Below, piece after piece: positions 1 to 5,600 of a stretch of DNA of 5,914 nt (its first letter is position 1; every line of letters begins with the position of its first letter). The stretch is from a bacterium (GTDB lineage Bacteria > BMS3Abin14): assembly GCA_029210545.1 (NCBI GenBank), contig JARGFV010000133.1:1-5914 (forward strand), read 5' to 3'. The notes beneath the pieces are model-generated. The model was not told the DNA's origin. It saw only the letters and a program-made list of their open reading frames with translations, and ran no database searches. The translations under genes and the position numbers were made by a program.

Positions 1-7
1 TTCCTTA

Positions 8-42
8 CAAATCAATGACTTACGGAGTGAGTCATTGATTTG
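8..42. repeat. Long inverted repeat, outer hairpin 1 downstream of priA
   Basis: Bases 8-20 pair perfectly with 30-42 (13 bp). The stem extends through a T-G wobble and two more pairs to a three-base loop at 24-26. The arms carry the core ATGACT/AGTCAT also found in the hairpin at 63-88, so the two look like related units of one intergenic repeat. Read on the minus strand it is the last of three hairpins after the priA stop codon. There is no strong T tract on either side, so it is not a textbook intrinsic terminator, though a stem this stable could stop 3' exonucleases or help termination. The structure is seen directly; its role is inferred. Confidence 0.8.
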
Positions 43-43
43 G

Positions 44-61
44 GCGCCCCGCGCGGGGCGC
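44..61. repeat. Perfect 18-bp GC-only palindrome between the two hairpins
   Basis: Every base from 44 to 61 is G or C, and the segment equals its own reverse complement, centred between 52 and 53. In RNA it would form a seven-pair stem with a GCGC loop. It is flanked on both sides by the heptamer CATTGAT (33-39 and 61-67), which ties it to the neighbouring inverted repeats as one composite element. It could serve as the GC-rich stem of a bidirectional terminator, but no T run follows directly on either strand. Confidence 0.75.
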
Positions 62-62
62 A

Positions 63-88
63 TTGATGACTTTTTGCGAAGTCATCAA
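63..88. repeat. Inverted repeat, outer hairpin 3 nearest the priA stop
   Basis: Bases 63-72 pair with 79-88 (10 bp) around the loop TTTGCG. On the minus strand it lies about 20 bases after the priA TAA stop and is the first structure the operon transcript meets. Bases 68-87 match 5755-5774, upstream of the same operon, at 17 of 20 positions with only transitions differing. That marks it as a member of a dispersed intergenic repeat rather than a one-off terminator. From memory, hairpins containing GACTTTTT-GCGA-type cores are frequent between genes in deltaproteobacterial genomes; this was not checked against any database. Confidence 0.75.
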
Positions 89-108
89 ATTTGAGGACAG
101 GGAGTGTT

Positions 109-2271
109 TTATAGCAGCTGGATGGGATCCACCCGTACATTGACCCGCACTCCGGCGGGCTGTTCCCTGCGGGCCGAAGAAAGCACCCGGATAAGCTCGC
201 CGTGGCTTTGGGCGAGCACCAGGAGGTGCCAGCGGTGCCTGTTCCTGATCCGGCTGATCGGAGCGGGGGAGGGCCCCAGGATCCGGGCGTCGGGACCGAC
301 CTTGAGGGAACGGGAGATGCTCGCGGCAGCCCTGGAAACTTTCTCTTCGGAGATACCGTCCACCACGATGCGGCCCAGCCGTCCGAAAGGGGGGTAGCCC
401 AACTGCCGGCGGAGGAGTTTCTCGGACTCGAAAAAGGCGTCGTAATCGCCGCCAAGGGCGCTTGTCACGGCATAATGGTTGGGGGTATAGGTCTGGACAA
501 CCACCTTGCCCCTCTTTTCCCCCCTCCCGGCCCTGCCGGAGACCTGGGTGATGATCTGAAAAGTCCTTTCCGCGGATCGAAAATCCGGGATGTCCAGGGC
601 CTGCTCGGCGCTGAGGATCCCTGCCAGGGTCACGCGGGGGAAGTCATGTCCCTTGGCCAGCATCTGGGTCCCCACCAGGATGTCGGTCTCACCTGAATCC
701 ATCCGATCATAGATCGCTTCCAGGGCGCCCGGTTTGCCGAGGGCATCCCGGTCCAGCCGGTCAACGGATGCCGATGGGAACCTCTCCATGAGGACTTTTT
801 CCACCTTCTGGGTGCCGGCTCCCACGGGCTCGAGGGCGGTTGAGCTGCACCGGGGGCAGCTGTCCGGGGGTTTCTGTTTGTGGCCGCAATAATGGCAGAC
901 CACGGCAGGTCCCGAGTGGTAGGTCAGGGTGACGCTGCAGTTGGGGCAGGGCATGGCTTCCTGGCATTCGGTGCACAGGAGGAACGGGGCGAAGCCGCGC
1001 CTGTTGAGAAACAGCATGGCCTGCTCCCCCCGCACGATGACGCCCTCGATCTCCGTGAGAAGGGTCTTCGACAGCGACGGGTCCTTCGGATCCTGCTGGT
1101 CCGGCTGTGACATGTCCACCACCACCAGCTCGGGGTCAGGGGAGGGTGTGACCCGTTCGGGCAGGACCGCGATTTCGTACTTCCCGGTAACAGTATTGTG
1201 CCACGACTCGAAGGAAGGTGTGGCCGAGCCGAGGACCACAGGGACACCCTCGATCTGGCCCCTTTTTACGGCCACGTCCCTGGCGCTATAACTGGGAGTG
1301 TCTTCCTGGCGGAAGGAGGGATCGTGCTCCTCGTCCACGATGATGAGCCCGAGATCCGGGACGGGGGCGAAGACACCGGAGCGAACTCCAACCACCAGGC
1401 GGGCTTTGCCCCTTTGTACCGCTTCCCAGGAAGCCTCCCTTTCAGAGCCCTTCATGCCGCTGTGCAGGGCGGCCACCTGTCCGGGGGCTACCCGCTCCAG
1501 CCTGGATACGAGCAGGGGGGTCAGGGAGATCTCGGGAACCAGCAGCAGCACGCCTTTCCCCCTGTCAAGGGTGTGCCTTGCGGCCCGCAGGTAGACCTCC
1601 GTCTTCCCCGAACCGGTAACCCCCCTCATGAGAGTGACAGTGAACCGTGCCTCGTCCACGGCTTTCGTCATCCCGGAAAGAGCATCTTCCTGATGAATCG
1701 TCAGGTTCTGCACCTGCTTCTCATCCCTCCGGTAGCCCGCGGACGGGGCACGATGTTCCTTCCGGGCGGGTTCGGCAGGTACGATGAGACCCCCGGCCGT
1801 GGCTGCCTCCATGAGGCTCGGATCGAACCGGTCGGAAAGGTAGGCGGCTGTCCTCGGTCCCCGTTTGAGCGCCTCGAGCAGCTCCGTGCTGGAGCTGGGT
1901 CCCGCATCCAGCGATGCCCGGCCTTTGTCGGTGAGCACAAATTTTGGTCCCCTGCCGCCGGTTCGGGCCGGCGGCAGGGCTAGCCTCAGAAGGAGCCCGA
2001 CAGGGCTCAGATAATACAAGGCGGCCCACAGGGAAAGCTCCAGGAGAGGTCCGGGGACGGGGGAAATGTGGGCTATGGAAACGATGGCCCGGGTCTTTAC
2101 CGGAGAGGAGTCCAGCAGCTCGGTGACGACACCTGTCATGGTCTGGCGGCCGAAGGGAACGTGGACCACGGTGCCTGGAAATATCTGTCCTGCGAGGTTT
2201 TCCGGGATCCGGTAGTGAAACGTTTCCTCGACGGGCCTCGGAAGGGCGACCCGTGCGAAGGCCTGGTTCAT
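109..2271 (-). CDS. priA: Primosomal protein N' (replication restart helicase PriA)
   Basis: PriA is a superfamily 2 3'-5' DNA helicase that recognises stalled or collapsed forks and D-loops and reloads the replicative helicase through the primosome. The 720 residues match the usual length. The N-terminal fork-binding region (about 1-105) contains the typical PVEETFHYRIPE start. The helicase follows: Walker A GVTGSGKT at 217-224, DEEH box at 313-316, GSATPS at 348-353, and motif VI QVSGRAGRG at 576-584. Eight cysteines (433, 436, 442, 445, 459, 462, 472, 475) form the two zinc sites. The C-terminal domain contains LGYPPFGRL and ILGPSPAPI, and the gene ends at TAA. The ATG overlaps the TGA of the upstream gene as ATGA. 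A GAAGGG lies only two bases before the ATG, so translational coupling probably matters. It is the last gene of the operon. No motif residue is missing, so it should be functional. Confidence 0.98.
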   Translation of the reverse strand: MNQAFARVALPRPVEETFHYRIPENLAGQIFPGTVVHVPFGRQTMTGVVTELLDSSPVKTRAIVSIAHISPVPGPLLELSLWAALYYLSPVGLLLRLALPPARTGGRGPKFVLTDKGRASLDAGPSSSTELLEALKRGPRTAAYLSDRFDPSLMEAATAGGLIVPAEPARKEHRAPSAGYRRDEKQVQNLTIHQEDALSGMTKAVDEARFTVTLMRGVTGSGKTEVYLRAARHTLDRGKGVLLLVPEISLTPLLVSRLERVAPGQVAALHSGMKGSEREASWEAVQRGKARLVVGVRSGVFAPVPDLGLIIVDEEHDPSFRQEDTPSYSARDVAVKRGQIEGVPVVLGSATPSFESWHNTVTGKYEIAVLPERVTPSPDPELVVVDMSQPDQQDPKDPSLSKTLLTEIEGVIVRGEQAMLFLNRRGFAPFLLCTECQEAMPCPNCSVTLTYHSGPAVVCHYCGHKQKPPDSCPRCSSTALEPVGAGTQKVEKVLMERFPSASVDRLDRDALGKPGALEAIYDRMDSGETDILVGTQMLAKGHDFPRVTLAGILSAEQALDIPDFRSAERTFQIITQVSGRAGRGEKRGKVVVQTYTPNHYAVTSALGGDYDAFFESEKLLRRQLGYPPFGRLGRIVVDGISEEKVSRAAASISRSLKVGPDARILGPSPAPISRIRNRHRWHLLVLAQSHGELIRVLSSARREQPAGVRVNVRVDPIQLL

Positions 2272-2828
2272 GGCCCTTCGGTTCCCGCTGCGGCGGGGAG
2301 GATGCGCTCCACGATCAGGAGGCTGCCATCCCTGCGGACCTCCGTCCTGGCAGGGTATCGCACCTTTTCGGAAACGTGGACCATGTCCAGGTAATCCGTG
2401 ATGGTGGAGGAACTGTCTTCGGAAAGGGTCTCGATCCGAAGGGGAATGTAAGTGCCCTTGTCAAGCCACAGCCTGACGCCGTTTCCTTTCACCAGGTAGC
2501 ACACTGTGCCTGACAGACGGTCCAGGGTCACCGGGGTCTCTTCCAGGGTGAGGAAAGGCCAGGAGGCAGCCAGCGCTTCCTTCGACCCTGTAAAACGGCT
2601 GTAAGGCACACCAGGGAATGATGAGGCGTCGGTCCCCGCGGATCTGGATGGGATGGTTACCGTTCTTTCCTCCAGCACGTTGCCGTCAGGGTCCTCCATG
2701 ATCAGCTGGACCTGGATCGCCTCGGCTCGTGCGAGGGCCGCCTCCACCCGGTTGAGGATCTCCGGAGCGGTGAGTGTGTAGGTGAGGACAGGCAGCATCA
2801 GCCATGGGAAGACAAAGCGGGCGATCAT
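2268..2828 (-). CDS. Exported LolA-like / outer-membrane lipoprotein-sorting-type protein
   Basis: A 186-residue protein with a hydrophobic N-terminal segment (about 4-19, after Met-Ile-Ala-Arg) that looks like a signal peptide or anchor. APEILNRVEAAL follows at 21-32, resembling the 'AxEILxRvxxxl' opening of periplasmic proteins annotated as outer membrane lipoprotein-sorting (LolA/LolB fold). The remainder alternates short strand-like segments (GTVCYLVKGNGVRLWLDKGTYIPLRIETL at 107-135 in part), consistent with that fold. The only cysteine is 110, so there is no lipobox and it is not itself a lipoprotein. The LolA-fold call rests on pattern resemblance, and a carrier role for lipoproteins is not shown. 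The start is well supported: GGAGGAG at 2837-2843 lies eight bases before the ATG. The ATG overlaps the TGA of the upstream gene (ATGA), and its own TGA overlaps the priA start the same way. Confidence 0.7.
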   Translation of the reverse strand: MIARFVFPWLMLPVLTYTLTAPEILNRVEAALARAEAIQVQLIMEDPDGNVLEERTVTIPSRSAGTDASSFPGVPYSRFTGSKEALAASWPFLTLEETPVTLDRLSGTVCYLVKGNGVRLWLDKGTYIPLRIETLSEDSSSTITDYLDMVHVSEKVRYPARTEVRRDGSLLIVERILPAAAGTEGP

Positions 2829-3352
2829 GTGCGGTTCTCCTCCATCTGTGCGATGTAGGCGGCCGTGAGGATCTCGGGCTCGGGGATGCGCAATGTCCGG
2901 GCGAACTCCATAATAAAACCCCTGAGGTAGACAAGGGCCGGGAGGTCAGAGTAGCGCTGCTCCTCGATATACTCCAGGTAGGTGGACCGGATCCGGGTGC
3001 TGCCCGCGACCTCCTTGAGGGTCAGGCCCAGTTCCTCGCGCCGCCGCTTCAGGTAGGTCCCCACCGGTTCTCTCTCTTCCAGGCTCCTGGCGGGGGCCAG
3101 CCCTTCGCCTCTCAGGGGCATCTGCCTGCCGGCCGACGGCGCCTCAAGGTTGGAGGTGATGCGCATGTATGCCTTCTCGATACGGTGCAGGATGCCTGAC
3201 CTTTCCTCGTCGGCCATGAGGCTGTAGGTGGCGAGGGAACTCTCGGCATAAAGGGCCTTCATGCGGTGGTAGGCACGGCGTACATCCTCAAGGGTCGCCC
3301 CGTCCTCCAGGTCCAGGAGCCGGTAGTCATCGTTTGAAACGGACCCGCTCAT
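2825..3352 (-). CDS. J-like region fused to RodZ-type helix-turn-helix, cytoplasmic
   Basis: A 175-residue protein in two parts. Residues 9-66 (YRLLDLEDGATLEDVRRAYHRM ... IEKAYMRI, abridged) follow the J-domain pattern of 'YxlLgL...s.edIrrAYrrl...i.eAY.vL'. The HPD tripeptide needed to stimulate DnaK is absent, so it would be a degenerate J-like fold. After a linker, residues 97-165 match the N-terminal HTH of RodZ and related proteins: VGTYLKRRREELGLTLKEVA, then IRSTYLEYIEE and LPALVYLRGFI. In RodZ this domain contacts the actin-like MreB. Here no transmembrane or periplasmic part follows, so the protein should be soluble. It could bind DNA, a cytoskeletal filament or the adjacent ATPase; the sequence does not decide. 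The ATG at 3352 overlaps the ATPase stop as ATGA. The ribosome site is weak (AGAGAG), which favours coupling to the upstream gene. Confidence 0.8.
   Translation of the reverse strand: MSGSVSNDDYRLLDLEDGATLEDVRRAYHRMKALYAESSLATYSLMADEERSGILHRIEKAYMRITSNLEAPSAGRQMPLRGEGLAPARSLEEREPVGTYLKRRREELGLTLKEVAGSTRIRSTYLEYIEEQRYSDLPALVYLRGFIMEFARTLRIPEPEILTAAYIAQMEENRT
2837..2843 (-). promoter_or_regulatory. Strong Shine-Dalgarno of the LolA-like gene
   Basis: The minus strand reads GGAGGAG here, eight bases before the ATG at 2828. It sits inside the end of the upstream coding region. It fixes the start of the exported protein and suggests this cistron can be initiated independently despite the ATGA overlap. 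Confidence 0.7.
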
Positions 3353-4293
3353 GGCACGGCTCTCTTCGAGTCGAGGAGGTTGCGGACGATGGCATGGATG
3401 CTCCTGGAAAATGGGCTGGCCGGGAACGCCTCGAGGACCGCCTTGCGCAGCCTGACGGCCTCCCGCAGGGAGTCGTCCTCGTCGATGCTGCCGATGTGCC
3501 GAATCTCGATGCCAAAGTAGTCGCGGCAGGCGTGGACAATGTCATTTCCCAGGTTGTGGTCGTCGAACCGCCGGGTCTGGTTGACGATAATGTCGGGGCA
3601 GAAAGTCGCGGCCTCCTCCATGAGGGCCTGCCCCGCTTCCGGATCGATCTGGGCCACGTTGCTGATCAGGGTCCTCGGCGACTGGATGCCCCGTGCGACC
3701 TTCTCCTCCATGGCCTTGTCGATAGCCTCGGCCACACCGCTCAGTTTTGTGGCCTTTTTGAGCTTTCTGTAGAAGGCCGCCTTGATGAAATGGTATGCGT
3801 TCTCCACCGAGGTCGGCTCCGGCAAAACAACCAGCACCCCCTCGTCGGCTGCGAGAAAAAAGTCCAGCGTGTTGAACGCTGAACCCGAACCGAGGTCCAG
3901 GAGGACGAAATCCACGTCCAGGGTCGTGATGTGGCGGATGATCTTTTCCTTCTGTGTGTGCTTGGGGTTGGCCATCTCGAGGAGGGCCCTGGAACCGCTG
4001 ATAAAACGGAGGTTGGGGAAAGGAGTCTGGACCATGGTGTCCGCAAGGGAGTCCACTTCCTTGCGGATAAAATCAGACAGTGTGCGGTCAGGTCCCGCCA
4101 TGCCGAGAACAGTGTGCAGGTTTGCCCCGCCGAGGTCGGCGTCCAGGGCGACGCAGATGAACCCCAGCTGGGAAAGGCAGATGGCCATGTTGGCGGTGAT
4201 CACTGTCTTCCCGACACCGCCCTTGCCTCCACCCACGGCCCATATCCTGGGCCGTGTTCTTTCGTTCGTTTCCGGGTTCAGACCGATCATCAC
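3349..4293 (-). CDS. MinD/ParA-family P-loop ATPase (FlhG/MinD-like)
   Basis: A 314-residue SIMIBI-class ATPase. The deviant Walker A motif GGGKGGVGKT at 21-30 contains the signature lysine 24, which in MinD/ParA reaches across the dimer to the partner's nucleotide. DADLGGANLH at 51-60 is the switch I/A' motif and FVLLDLGSGS at 129-138 the Walker B strand. EPTSVENAYHFIKAAFYRKL at 159-178 is typical of the MinD-like group that includes FlhG. Such proteins cycle between ATP-bound dimers on membrane or DNA and free monomers, positioning cell structures. The FlhG activation helix is absent before the P loop. The C-terminal end (about 298-314) has only a weakly amphipathic helix, so membrane binding is uncertain. 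No flagellar, ParB or MinC/MinE gene is nearby. The start is ambiguous: GTG at 4293 overlaps the upstream TGA as GTGA, and ATG at 4290 follows at once; a GAGG abuts both. Confidence 0.88.
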   Translation of the reverse strand: MMIGLNPETNERTRPRIWAVGGGKGGVGKTVITANMAICLSQLGFICVALDADLGGANLHTVLGMAGPDRTLSDFIRKEVDSLADTMVQTPFPNLRFISGSRALLEMANPKHTQKEKIIRHITTLDVDFVLLDLGSGSAFNTLDFFLAADEGVLVVLPEPTSVENAYHFIKAAFYRKLKKATKLSGVAEAIDKAMEEKVARGIQSPRTLISNVAQIDPEAGQALMEEAATFCPDIIVNQTRRFDDHNLGNDIVHACRDYFGIEIRHIGSIDEDDSLREAVRLRKAVLEAFPASPFSRSIHAIVRNLLDSKRAVP

Positions 4294-5600
4294 CTCACTG
4301 AGCCGTGATCGTAAAAGACAAGCCCGCTGAGGAGTTTCGGGTAGAAAAAGGTGGATTTCTGGGGCATTCGTTCCCTGGCCCCGGTGACCGCCACCAGATC
4401 GTCCATCCCCGTTGAGGGCATGACTGCCAGAAGGTTCCCGCCGTTGCGAGCCCTTTCGAGGGCGTCGCCGAGGTCCTTGAAATATTCGAGGTGCTCCTGG
4501 TGGCTTATCTGGTCAGAGGTCATGCCAAGGCACCCCATCATCAGGAACCGCTCGACAAGGGTGACCTCCAGGATGCGCACCGGGGCAGGGAGATCCGGCA
4601 TGAGTCCGGCCAGGTCGCTCTCACTGGTCAGGATCGCCTTGATAAAATGGTCGGCAACCGGGTCGTAGAGGATAAAACCCCTCCCGTCCAGGGTGGCAGG
4701 GGCAGTACCGGAACGGAGCATCTGTTCGGTTTTCCCCGTCACGTCGTCCAGGTGGAAGTTGGCGCCAAGCCGCTCGAGGACTTTTCCGAGGTCGAAATTC
4801 TCGAAACCGTAAAGGTGCCGGTGGGTAGGAAGAATGGCAAGACCCGGGTCCTGCATGCCCACGAGGGCCATCATCACGAAGTTGTACCCCTTGTCGGGAT
4901 GCGGGTCGGGGTCGGCTTCGGCCATTATCCGGGAATAGGTGAGGGCGGTTTCGTAACGGTGATGACCGTCGGCGATGTAAAGGTTCCTATCCGCCAGCAG
5001 GCCGGAAAGGGTGTCGATGATGGCGGGGTCGTCGATGACCCACATGCGGCGCCCCAGCCCGTCCCTGTCGGTGATGTCCATGATGGGCGCGGAGGCGAAT
5101 ACCGGGTCGAGTGCGGTCCTGACTGAGCCGGCGTCACCGTCGAACAGGGTAAAGACCTGGCTGAGGTTGCCCTTGAACGCCCTCATGAGTTTCAGCCGGT
5201 CCTCCTTGGGACCGCTGTGGGTCCTCTCGTGGGGGAAGATCCGCCCCGTCTCGAAGGGGTCGACCCTCACTCTGCCGATGATCCCCCAGCGGTGGTAGGG
5301 AGCGGGTTCGCCGGGTACCTGGAAGGAGTCCTCGATGAGGTAGTAGCGGGGCCCGGCGTCCTGCATGAGGATCCCCTCGGCGATCCACTTTTTCATGACA
5401 GCTGCTTCGTCGGTGTAGTTCCCGGCTTTGCCGGGTGTCGAACCCAGTATCAGACGGACACAGTTGGCCGGGTCACGCTTTAACAGCTCGGCGTGCTGGG
5501 ACGGGTCGATGACATCATAGGGCGGCGCCACGACACTGGAAAAATCGTCAATGCGTTCGGGGTTGTAGCGGATTCCGGGGAAGGGTCTGATCTCAGGCAA
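4290..5600 (-). CDS. DUF1015 family protein, first gene of the operon
   Basis: A complete 436-residue DUF1015 protein. Conserved family blocks visible are VVAPPYDVI at 23-31, a GRIFPHERT block ending at 127, DGHHRYETAL at 211-220, and MPQKSTFFYPKL near the C terminus (412-423). No signal peptide or membrane segment is seen, so it is probably cytoplasmic. I cannot assign a reaction. The DGHHR block loosely recalls the DGxHR-type loop of the ParB/sulfiredoxin superfamily, which includes the free serine kinase SerK; this is resemblance from memory, not proof. The start is TTG at 5600, chosen because GGAGGT lies five bases upstream and an in-frame stop at 5625-5627 leaves no ATG or GTG between. 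Its TGA overlaps the ATPase start. Next to PriA and a MinD-like ATPase it may simply be a housekeeping gene heading the transcript. Confidence 0.92.
   Translation of the reverse strand: MPEIRPFPGIRYNPERIDDFSSVVAPPYDVIDPSQHAELLKRDPANCVRLILGSTPGKAGNYTDEAAVMKKWIAEGILMQDAGPRYYLIEDSFQVPGEPAPYHRWGIIGRVRVDPFETGRIFPHERTHSGPKEDRLKLMRAFKGNLSQVFTLFDGDAGSVRTALDPVFASAPIMDITDRDGLGRRMWVIDDPAIIDTLSGLLADRNLYIADGHHRYETALTYSRIMAEADPDPHPDKGYNFVMMALVGMQDPGLAILPTHRHLYGFENFDLGKVLERLGANFHLDDVTGKTEQMLRSGTAPATLDGRGFILYDPVADHFIKAILTSESDLAGLMPDLPAPVRILEVTLVERFLMMGCLGMTSDQISHQEHLEYFKDLGDALERARNGGNLLAVMPSTGMDDLVAVTGARERMPQKSTFFYPKLLSGLVFYDHGSVR

Follow-up and report, generated by a model that had tools for sequence, protein, structure and literature searches.

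A soluble protein joining a J-like domain to a RodZ-type HTH domain is the probable partner of a FleN-like MinD/ParA-family ATPase

Introduction

Many ParA/MinD (A/D) ATPases are called orphans, their partner not being known, and most partner proteins of A/D ATPases stimulate the enzyme through an N-terminus that is basic and disordered (PMC10241942). FlhG has been defined by two motifs, an N-terminal helix with the sequence DQAxxLR and a C-terminal membrane helix (PMC12826062). In RodZ, two aromatic residues are required for MreB binding, as mutational data established for F60/Y64 of E. coli and Y66/F70 of Chlamydia (PMC4047632).

Here we describe a window of 5,914 nucleotides, the whole of the analysed stretch of contig JARGFV010000133.1, that encodes a FleN-like ATPase next to a protein consisting of a J-like domain and a RodZ-type HTH domain (J-HTH). 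The two proteins very probably work together, because their genes are adjacent across families, are fused in two families, and are linked by a loop of the J-like domain that covaries with the presence and integrity of the ATPase. No description of an ATPase/J-HTH pair was found in the open-access papers searched and, as far as these papers show, the partner type is one not recognised before for an ATPase of the MinD/ParA family.

Results

Gene organization of the window

The window contains a minus-strand operon of five genes connected by 4-nt overlaps, in the order DUF1015, ATPase, J-HTH, small protein and PriA (Table 1). The DUF1015 and ATPase genes overlap by GTGA; the ATPase and J-HTH genes, which the original prediction had singled out as an overlapping pair, do overlap, by ATGA. 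That prediction had also noted the lack of a Min, Par or flagellar partner, and indeed the window is free of min, par and flagellar genes and FlhA is absent from the genome. Rfam gave no match in the window. The DUF1015 gene is kept upstream of the pair in those loci of the window's family (f1) that extend far enough; its product, a protein of unknown function, stands beside the pair in f1 and was not seen beside it elsewhere. The short protein with the hydrophobic N-terminus was seen in f1 loci only and is regarded as an operon neighbour. Downstream of priA, at window positions 1–100, short inverted repeats lie around AATCAATGACT...AGTCATTGATT and GCGCCCCGCGCGGGGCGC. A scan of genomes by pattern found a single close relative.

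Table 1 Features of the window, with window coordinates, strand and basis of assignment.
Feature	Position	Strand	Basis
DUF1015 protein, opening the operon	4290..5600	−	PF06245 E 1e-78
MinD/ParA-family ATPase of FleN/FlhG type, 314 aa	3349..4293	−	Pfam/NCBIfam, AlphaFold2 model, FleN structural match
Deviant Walker A GGGKGGVGKT, residues 21–30, signature lysine K24	4204..4233	−	Sequence
Helical segment, about residues 172–228, between the halves of the core; absent from the FleN alignment	3610..3780	−	Profile alignment and model
Soluble J-like + HTH_25 protein (J-HTH), 175 aa, probable partner of the ATPase	2825..3352	−	
J-like domain, residues 7–70; helices 7–12, 21–34 and 48–70	3143..3334	−	Model m4922cab8ffe1 and profile match to DnaJ chains
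SLATYSL loop, residues 39–45, where HPD would stand; candidate ATPase-contact motif	3218..3238	−	Covariation
RodZ-type HTH_25 domain, residues 97–174	2831..3064	−	PF13413 E 5e-19; Foldseek
Y142 and F146, equivalents of the MreB-binding RodZ positions	2915..2929	−	Alignment to 4gqm and 2wus
Short protein with hydrophobic N-terminus, probably exported, possibly LolA/RseB-like	2268..2828	−	Sub-threshold MucB_RseB match only
PriA, closing the operon; neighbour outside the module	109..2271	−	PriA domains in Pfam

A FleN-like ATPase with a role outside flagella

The assignment of the first protein of the pair to the MinD/ParA ATPases, made originally from its deviant Walker A motif with K24, is confirmed by matches to ParA, CbiA and AAA_31 in Pfam, above cut-off, and both K24 and K29 are at least 90% conserved in ATPase alignment A6. 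The AlphaFold2 model (pTM 0.86) has the MinD/ParA fold (Z 28–33), so that signature lysine, deviant Walker A motif and fold of the A/D ATPases are all present. FleN/FlhG is nearest in both sequence and structure: the best structural match was FleN-AMPPNP, with a Z score of 33.6 over 245 residues and 31% identity, followed by FlhG and MinD (MinD Z about 28; VIA-align). The closest FleN structures include some complexes with FleQ.

The window ATPase departs from these proteins in several regions. Its profile alignment to FleN breaks at residue 167 and resumes at residue 228, leaving an insertion of ~55 residues that forms helices in the model. The N-terminus (MMIGLNPETNERTRP, low pLDDT) is devoid of the DQAxxLR enhancer helix of FlhG/FleN, and the chain ends a few residues past a core helix (residues 294–308) that is aligned to FleN up to residue 255–258, with no C-terminal membrane-targeting helix of the MinD/FlhG kind. 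Against the NCBIfam minD_bact equivalog, the protein scored 56.8 bits, far below the cut-off of 212.9. FlhA is absent from all eight f1 genomes searched (the window genome, G000, and seven relatives) and from 17 of the 25 genomes searched. The window protein thus resembles FleN but does a job other than flagellar.

Domain structure of J-HTH

A family profile built from 16 relatives matched DnaJ chains in the PDB with its N-terminal half (E 1e-10) and the RodZ-type HTH structures 3fym, CT009 and 2wus with its C-terminal half, in agreement with the original description of a J-like region joined to a RodZ-type HTH. The J-like part of the window protein itself scored 12.4 bits against a Pfam DnaJ cut-off of 27.8; we regard the J homology as real because the profile reaches DnaJ at 1e-10 and one fused relative exceeds the Pfam cut-off (31.8 bits). 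In the AlphaFold2 model (mean pLDDT 87), the J helices and a five-helix HTH domain are separated by a low-confidence linker, and helices I–III of the J fold are present together with the homology. The top Foldseek rows for the HTH domain were 3fym, SinR and 2wus RodZ, with J domains lower in the list.

The protein is soluble, as had been predicted, with no transmembrane segment (maximum mean hydropathy 0.79) and a chain that stops after the HTH domain. It has no basic disordered N-terminus, MSGSVSNDDY directly preceding helix I; some relatives carry KRKK or KKKLK ahead of this helix. HPD, the motif needed for stimulation of Hsp70, was found in 0 of 102 aligned J-HTH sequences, its place being occupied by a loop of the type S-L-A-x-Y-S-L.

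Conservation of the pair

The survey drew on 290 genomes, as a rule one or two from each family, and the nearest sampled genomes outside f1 are related to it no more closely than 'same domain'. Of the 290 genomes, 58 have a member of the ATPase subfamily, and J-HTH proteins with both parts occur in 14 families besides f1, drawn from unrelated lineages across Bacteria. Within f1, every locus of sufficient length has the two genes side by side. Outside it, the ATPase lies directly upstream of J-HTH or is fused to it in 13 of the 14 families, G278 being the sole exception; in G060 the ATPase gene is cut by the contig end. Single-ORF fusions of ATPase and J-HTH occur in two of these families (G242 and G104 of f94, and G257).

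The same arrangement was seen in two phyla. The phylum of G039, whose genomes are large (by our guess probably Myxococcota), has J-HTH in 99 of 146 genomes, and among the best 30 loci the ATPase is directly upstream in 22, or in 24 if two further loci are counted, where it emerged on reading the second half of a split gene. In the phylum of G278 (at a guess, possibly Bdellovibrionota), J-HTH is present in 166 of 191 genomes; the ATPase is directly upstream in 28 of the best 30 loci, the other two being contig ends, and in 16 of 20 weaker loci, giving 44 of 48 evaluable loci overall. The gene-neighbourhood comparison thus supports the original proposal that the two proteins are partners, and adjacency across families excludes chance adjacency in a single lineage. 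On the ATPase tree, the J-associated ATPases cluster (5 label changes versus 16.5 in shuffles), and a single clade of them is neither supported nor rejected (p-AU 0.109).

At several loci (L043, L044, L083, L087, L091 and L093), an HNH-nuclease gene recurs upstream of the pair, and downstream comes either a patatin-like phospholipase or a protein of 87 aa, followed by RluD. Bdellovibrio ParA2 (Bd2331, gliding reversals; PMC7186360) was considered as a studied member and set aside, as neither its locus nor the genes around it could be matched with this pair.

J-HTH also occurs without an adjoining ATPase, in G278, G293, G421, G327/G383, G613, G599 and G543/G657; genome-wide absence was examined in G278, G293, G327, G383 and G421. 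Since J-HTH persists in such lineages, and three of the eight lineages with absent or degenerate ATPase keep the loop aromatic, an ATPase-independent role is conceivable, and J-HTH may have a function of its own.

Covariation of the J-domain loop with the ATPase

The aromatic residue of the loop is kept in 87 of 89 J-HTH sequences that have an adjacent or fused ATPase. Counted by lineage, it is kept in 30 of 32 lineages with the ATPase and in 3 of 8 in which the ATPase is absent from the neighbourhood or degenerate (Fisher p=0.0015), and the lineage medians of the loop score are 2.23 (32 lineages, ATPase intact) and 0.44 (8 lineages, absent or degenerate; p=0.0016), these p values being optimistic because the loop was chosen after the sequences had been viewed, and the negative lineages being few. 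The remainder of the J domain showed no difference (medians 1.73 versus 1.69, p=0.52). Among the five lineages that have lost the aromatic, G421 has a deleted loop, whereas the loop has been replaced in G293, G278, G543/G657 and the f94 fusions; the ATPase of the f94 fusions is without the Walker lysine (KGGAGTS). The aromatic is retained with no neighbouring ATPase in G327/G383, G599 and G613; G404, the sister of G327/G383, has the ATPase on another contig. In G375, the loop is degenerate though an ATPase is present elsewhere. Because decay upon loss of the ATPase is confined, within the J domain, to the loop, the SLATYSL-type loop is a candidate contact, and its covariation suggests that it likely touches the ATPase.

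The HTH end and MreB

Both positions that correspond to the MreB-contacting aromatics of RodZ are aromatic in 36 of 53 J-HTH sequences when every row of alignment A4 is included. Most lineages thus retain the pair, but two families have lost the second aromatic, f29 and f162, where I or M takes its place in the majority of members. Within the sister clade of the ATPases, an MreB fusion occurs in G155 and G440, which belong to the same genus. The fusion protein (L119:3267-5393 in G155, L233:304-2430 in G440) has 708 aa and consists of a MinD-family ATPase and a complete MreB (PF06723 E 3e-109); G155 additionally encodes a separate MreB. Other ATPases of the sister clade have a weak C-terminal PilZ match (L118:5062-6408), an N-terminal GYF_2 domain (L096:3947-5233 and probably L102:4833-6116), or an N-terminal stretch that appears J-like with HPE (L116:5484-7031).

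MreB was found in 25 of 25 pair genomes searched and in 261 of 290 controls (90%), and co-occurrence was dropped as evidence since the controls have MreB too. The window genome separately encodes a transmembrane RodZ-like protein. A link of the HTH end to MreB is possible, and MreB is the best single guess for what this end binds, not more.

Discussion

We consider it somewhat more probable than not that the two genes form one ATPase-gated module composed of a FleN/FlhG-derived ATPase and a dedicated soluble adaptor. The ATP-bound dimer of the ATPase would dock on the J-like domain at its LATYSL hairpin loop, so that the nucleotide cycle would gate or place whatever the RodZ-type HTH end holds; the J-like domain would not serve Hsp70 as a co-chaperone. 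The likeliest class of target would be envelope or cytoskeletal assembly, MreB or similar, rather than flagella. That J-HTH is the partner of the ATPase, as originally proposed, is well supported by adjacency in many families, fusion in two and the covarying J-loop; the further proposal, that the pair positions something linked to MreB, the pole or the nucleoid, stays conjectural. Against this module stand the lineages that have J-HTH and no ATPase, three of the eight absent or degenerate cases keeping the loop aromatic; the degenerate loop of G375, which has an ATPase elsewhere; the p-AU value, which leaves a single clade of J-associated ATPases neither supported nor rejected; and the fact that the window J-HTH lacks the disordered N-terminus with positive charge by which most partners of ParA/MinD ATPases act (PMC10241942).

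A narrower form of this explanation, in which J-HTH is an ATPase-gated soluble analogue of RodZ whose HTH end binds MreB so that the pair regulates elongation or polarity, is possible but doubtful. The aromatics in 36 of 53 sequences, read with the RodZ mutational data (PMC4047632), the fusion of a sister ATPase clade to full-length MreB in G155 and G440, and the connection of RodZ to the Min system by MinJ in B. subtilis (PMC5778138) are consistent with it. However, the second aromatic is I or M in f29 and f162, aromatics at these positions are general in HTH_25, the MreB fusion falls outside the J-associated ATPases, MreB is too common among the genomes for its co-occurrence to be informative, and the window genome has a normal transmembrane RodZ-like protein besides. 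The generalized version, a widespread and hitherto undescribed class of MinD-family partner in which an HPD-less J loop docks on a FleN-type ATPase and a RodZ-type HTH relays control to MreB, is put forward tentatively. By analogy with FleN and FleQ, the HTH could instead bind DNA, with the ATPase controlling it as an antiactivator controls a transcription factor. The FleN structures closest to the ATPase, some solved with FleQ, and the resemblance of the HTH to the DNA-binding SinR and C-proteins would fit such a pair, but the HTH is of the RodZ class with RodZ proteins as its best sequence matches, and J-HTH shows no relationship to FleQ, a member of the AAA+ proteins; this reading is rather unlikely.

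A role of the module in RNA modification or ribosome biogenesis is suggested by RluD: in the phylum of G278 it comes after J-HTH in 49 of 50 loci, in that of G039 in 20 of 30, and it does so even where the ATPase is missing. We judge it unlikely, as the gene order may simply be old and the f1 loci have no RluD, their neighbours being DUF1015, the small, probably exported protein and PriA. The J homology, and the existence of AtcJ, a dedicated small J protein that recruits DnaK (PMC6715715), would allow J-HTH to be a working co-chaperone that recruits DnaK so as to have it remodel either the ATPase or its cargo; with HPD absent from 102 of 102 sequences, this is very improbable, and the identity was rejected. 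It is extremely improbable that the ATPase is simply the flagellar FlhG beside an incidental neighbour: FleN/FlhG is its nearest relative in fold and sequence, but FlhA is missing from 8 of 8 f1 genomes and 17 of 25 searched, the DQAxxLR N-terminus and the C-terminal membrane helix are lacking, and the window genome without FlhA contradicts this identity, which was rejected.

On the preferred reading of an ATPase with a dedicated adaptor, a partner type that had gone unrecognised can be assigned to a whole ATPase subfamily in many bacterial families, together with a specific candidate contact motif. If the HTH end does bind MreB, positioning ATPases would be connected to the actin cytoskeleton.

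Compared with known systems, the window ATPase shares its fold and deviant Walker A motif with FleN/FlhG, but lacks the DQAxxLR helix and the C-terminal membrane helix and has the extra helical segment of residues 172–228; the host is without FlhA, and the partner is different. MinD of the Min system has the same MinD-type fold (Z about 28), whereas the window ATPase falls far under the equivalog cut-off, adjoins no MinC or MinE and has no C-terminal amphipathic helix. J-HTH and RodZ have in common the HTH_25 domain and the positions of the MreB-binding aromatic pair; unlike RodZ, J-HTH is soluble, has no transmembrane or periplasmic part and carries a J-like domain. With J proteins of the DnaJ/AtcJ type, it shares the three-helix J topology and, in many members, a J-like end of helix III (R..YD), but has a conserved LATYSL-type loop and not HPD. 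Although J-HTH is unrelated to the partners in PomXYZ, McdAB and ParC/ParP, and the window protein lacks a basic disordered N-terminus, these and other ParA/MinD cargo systems likewise consist of an ATPase with a dedicated partner gene.
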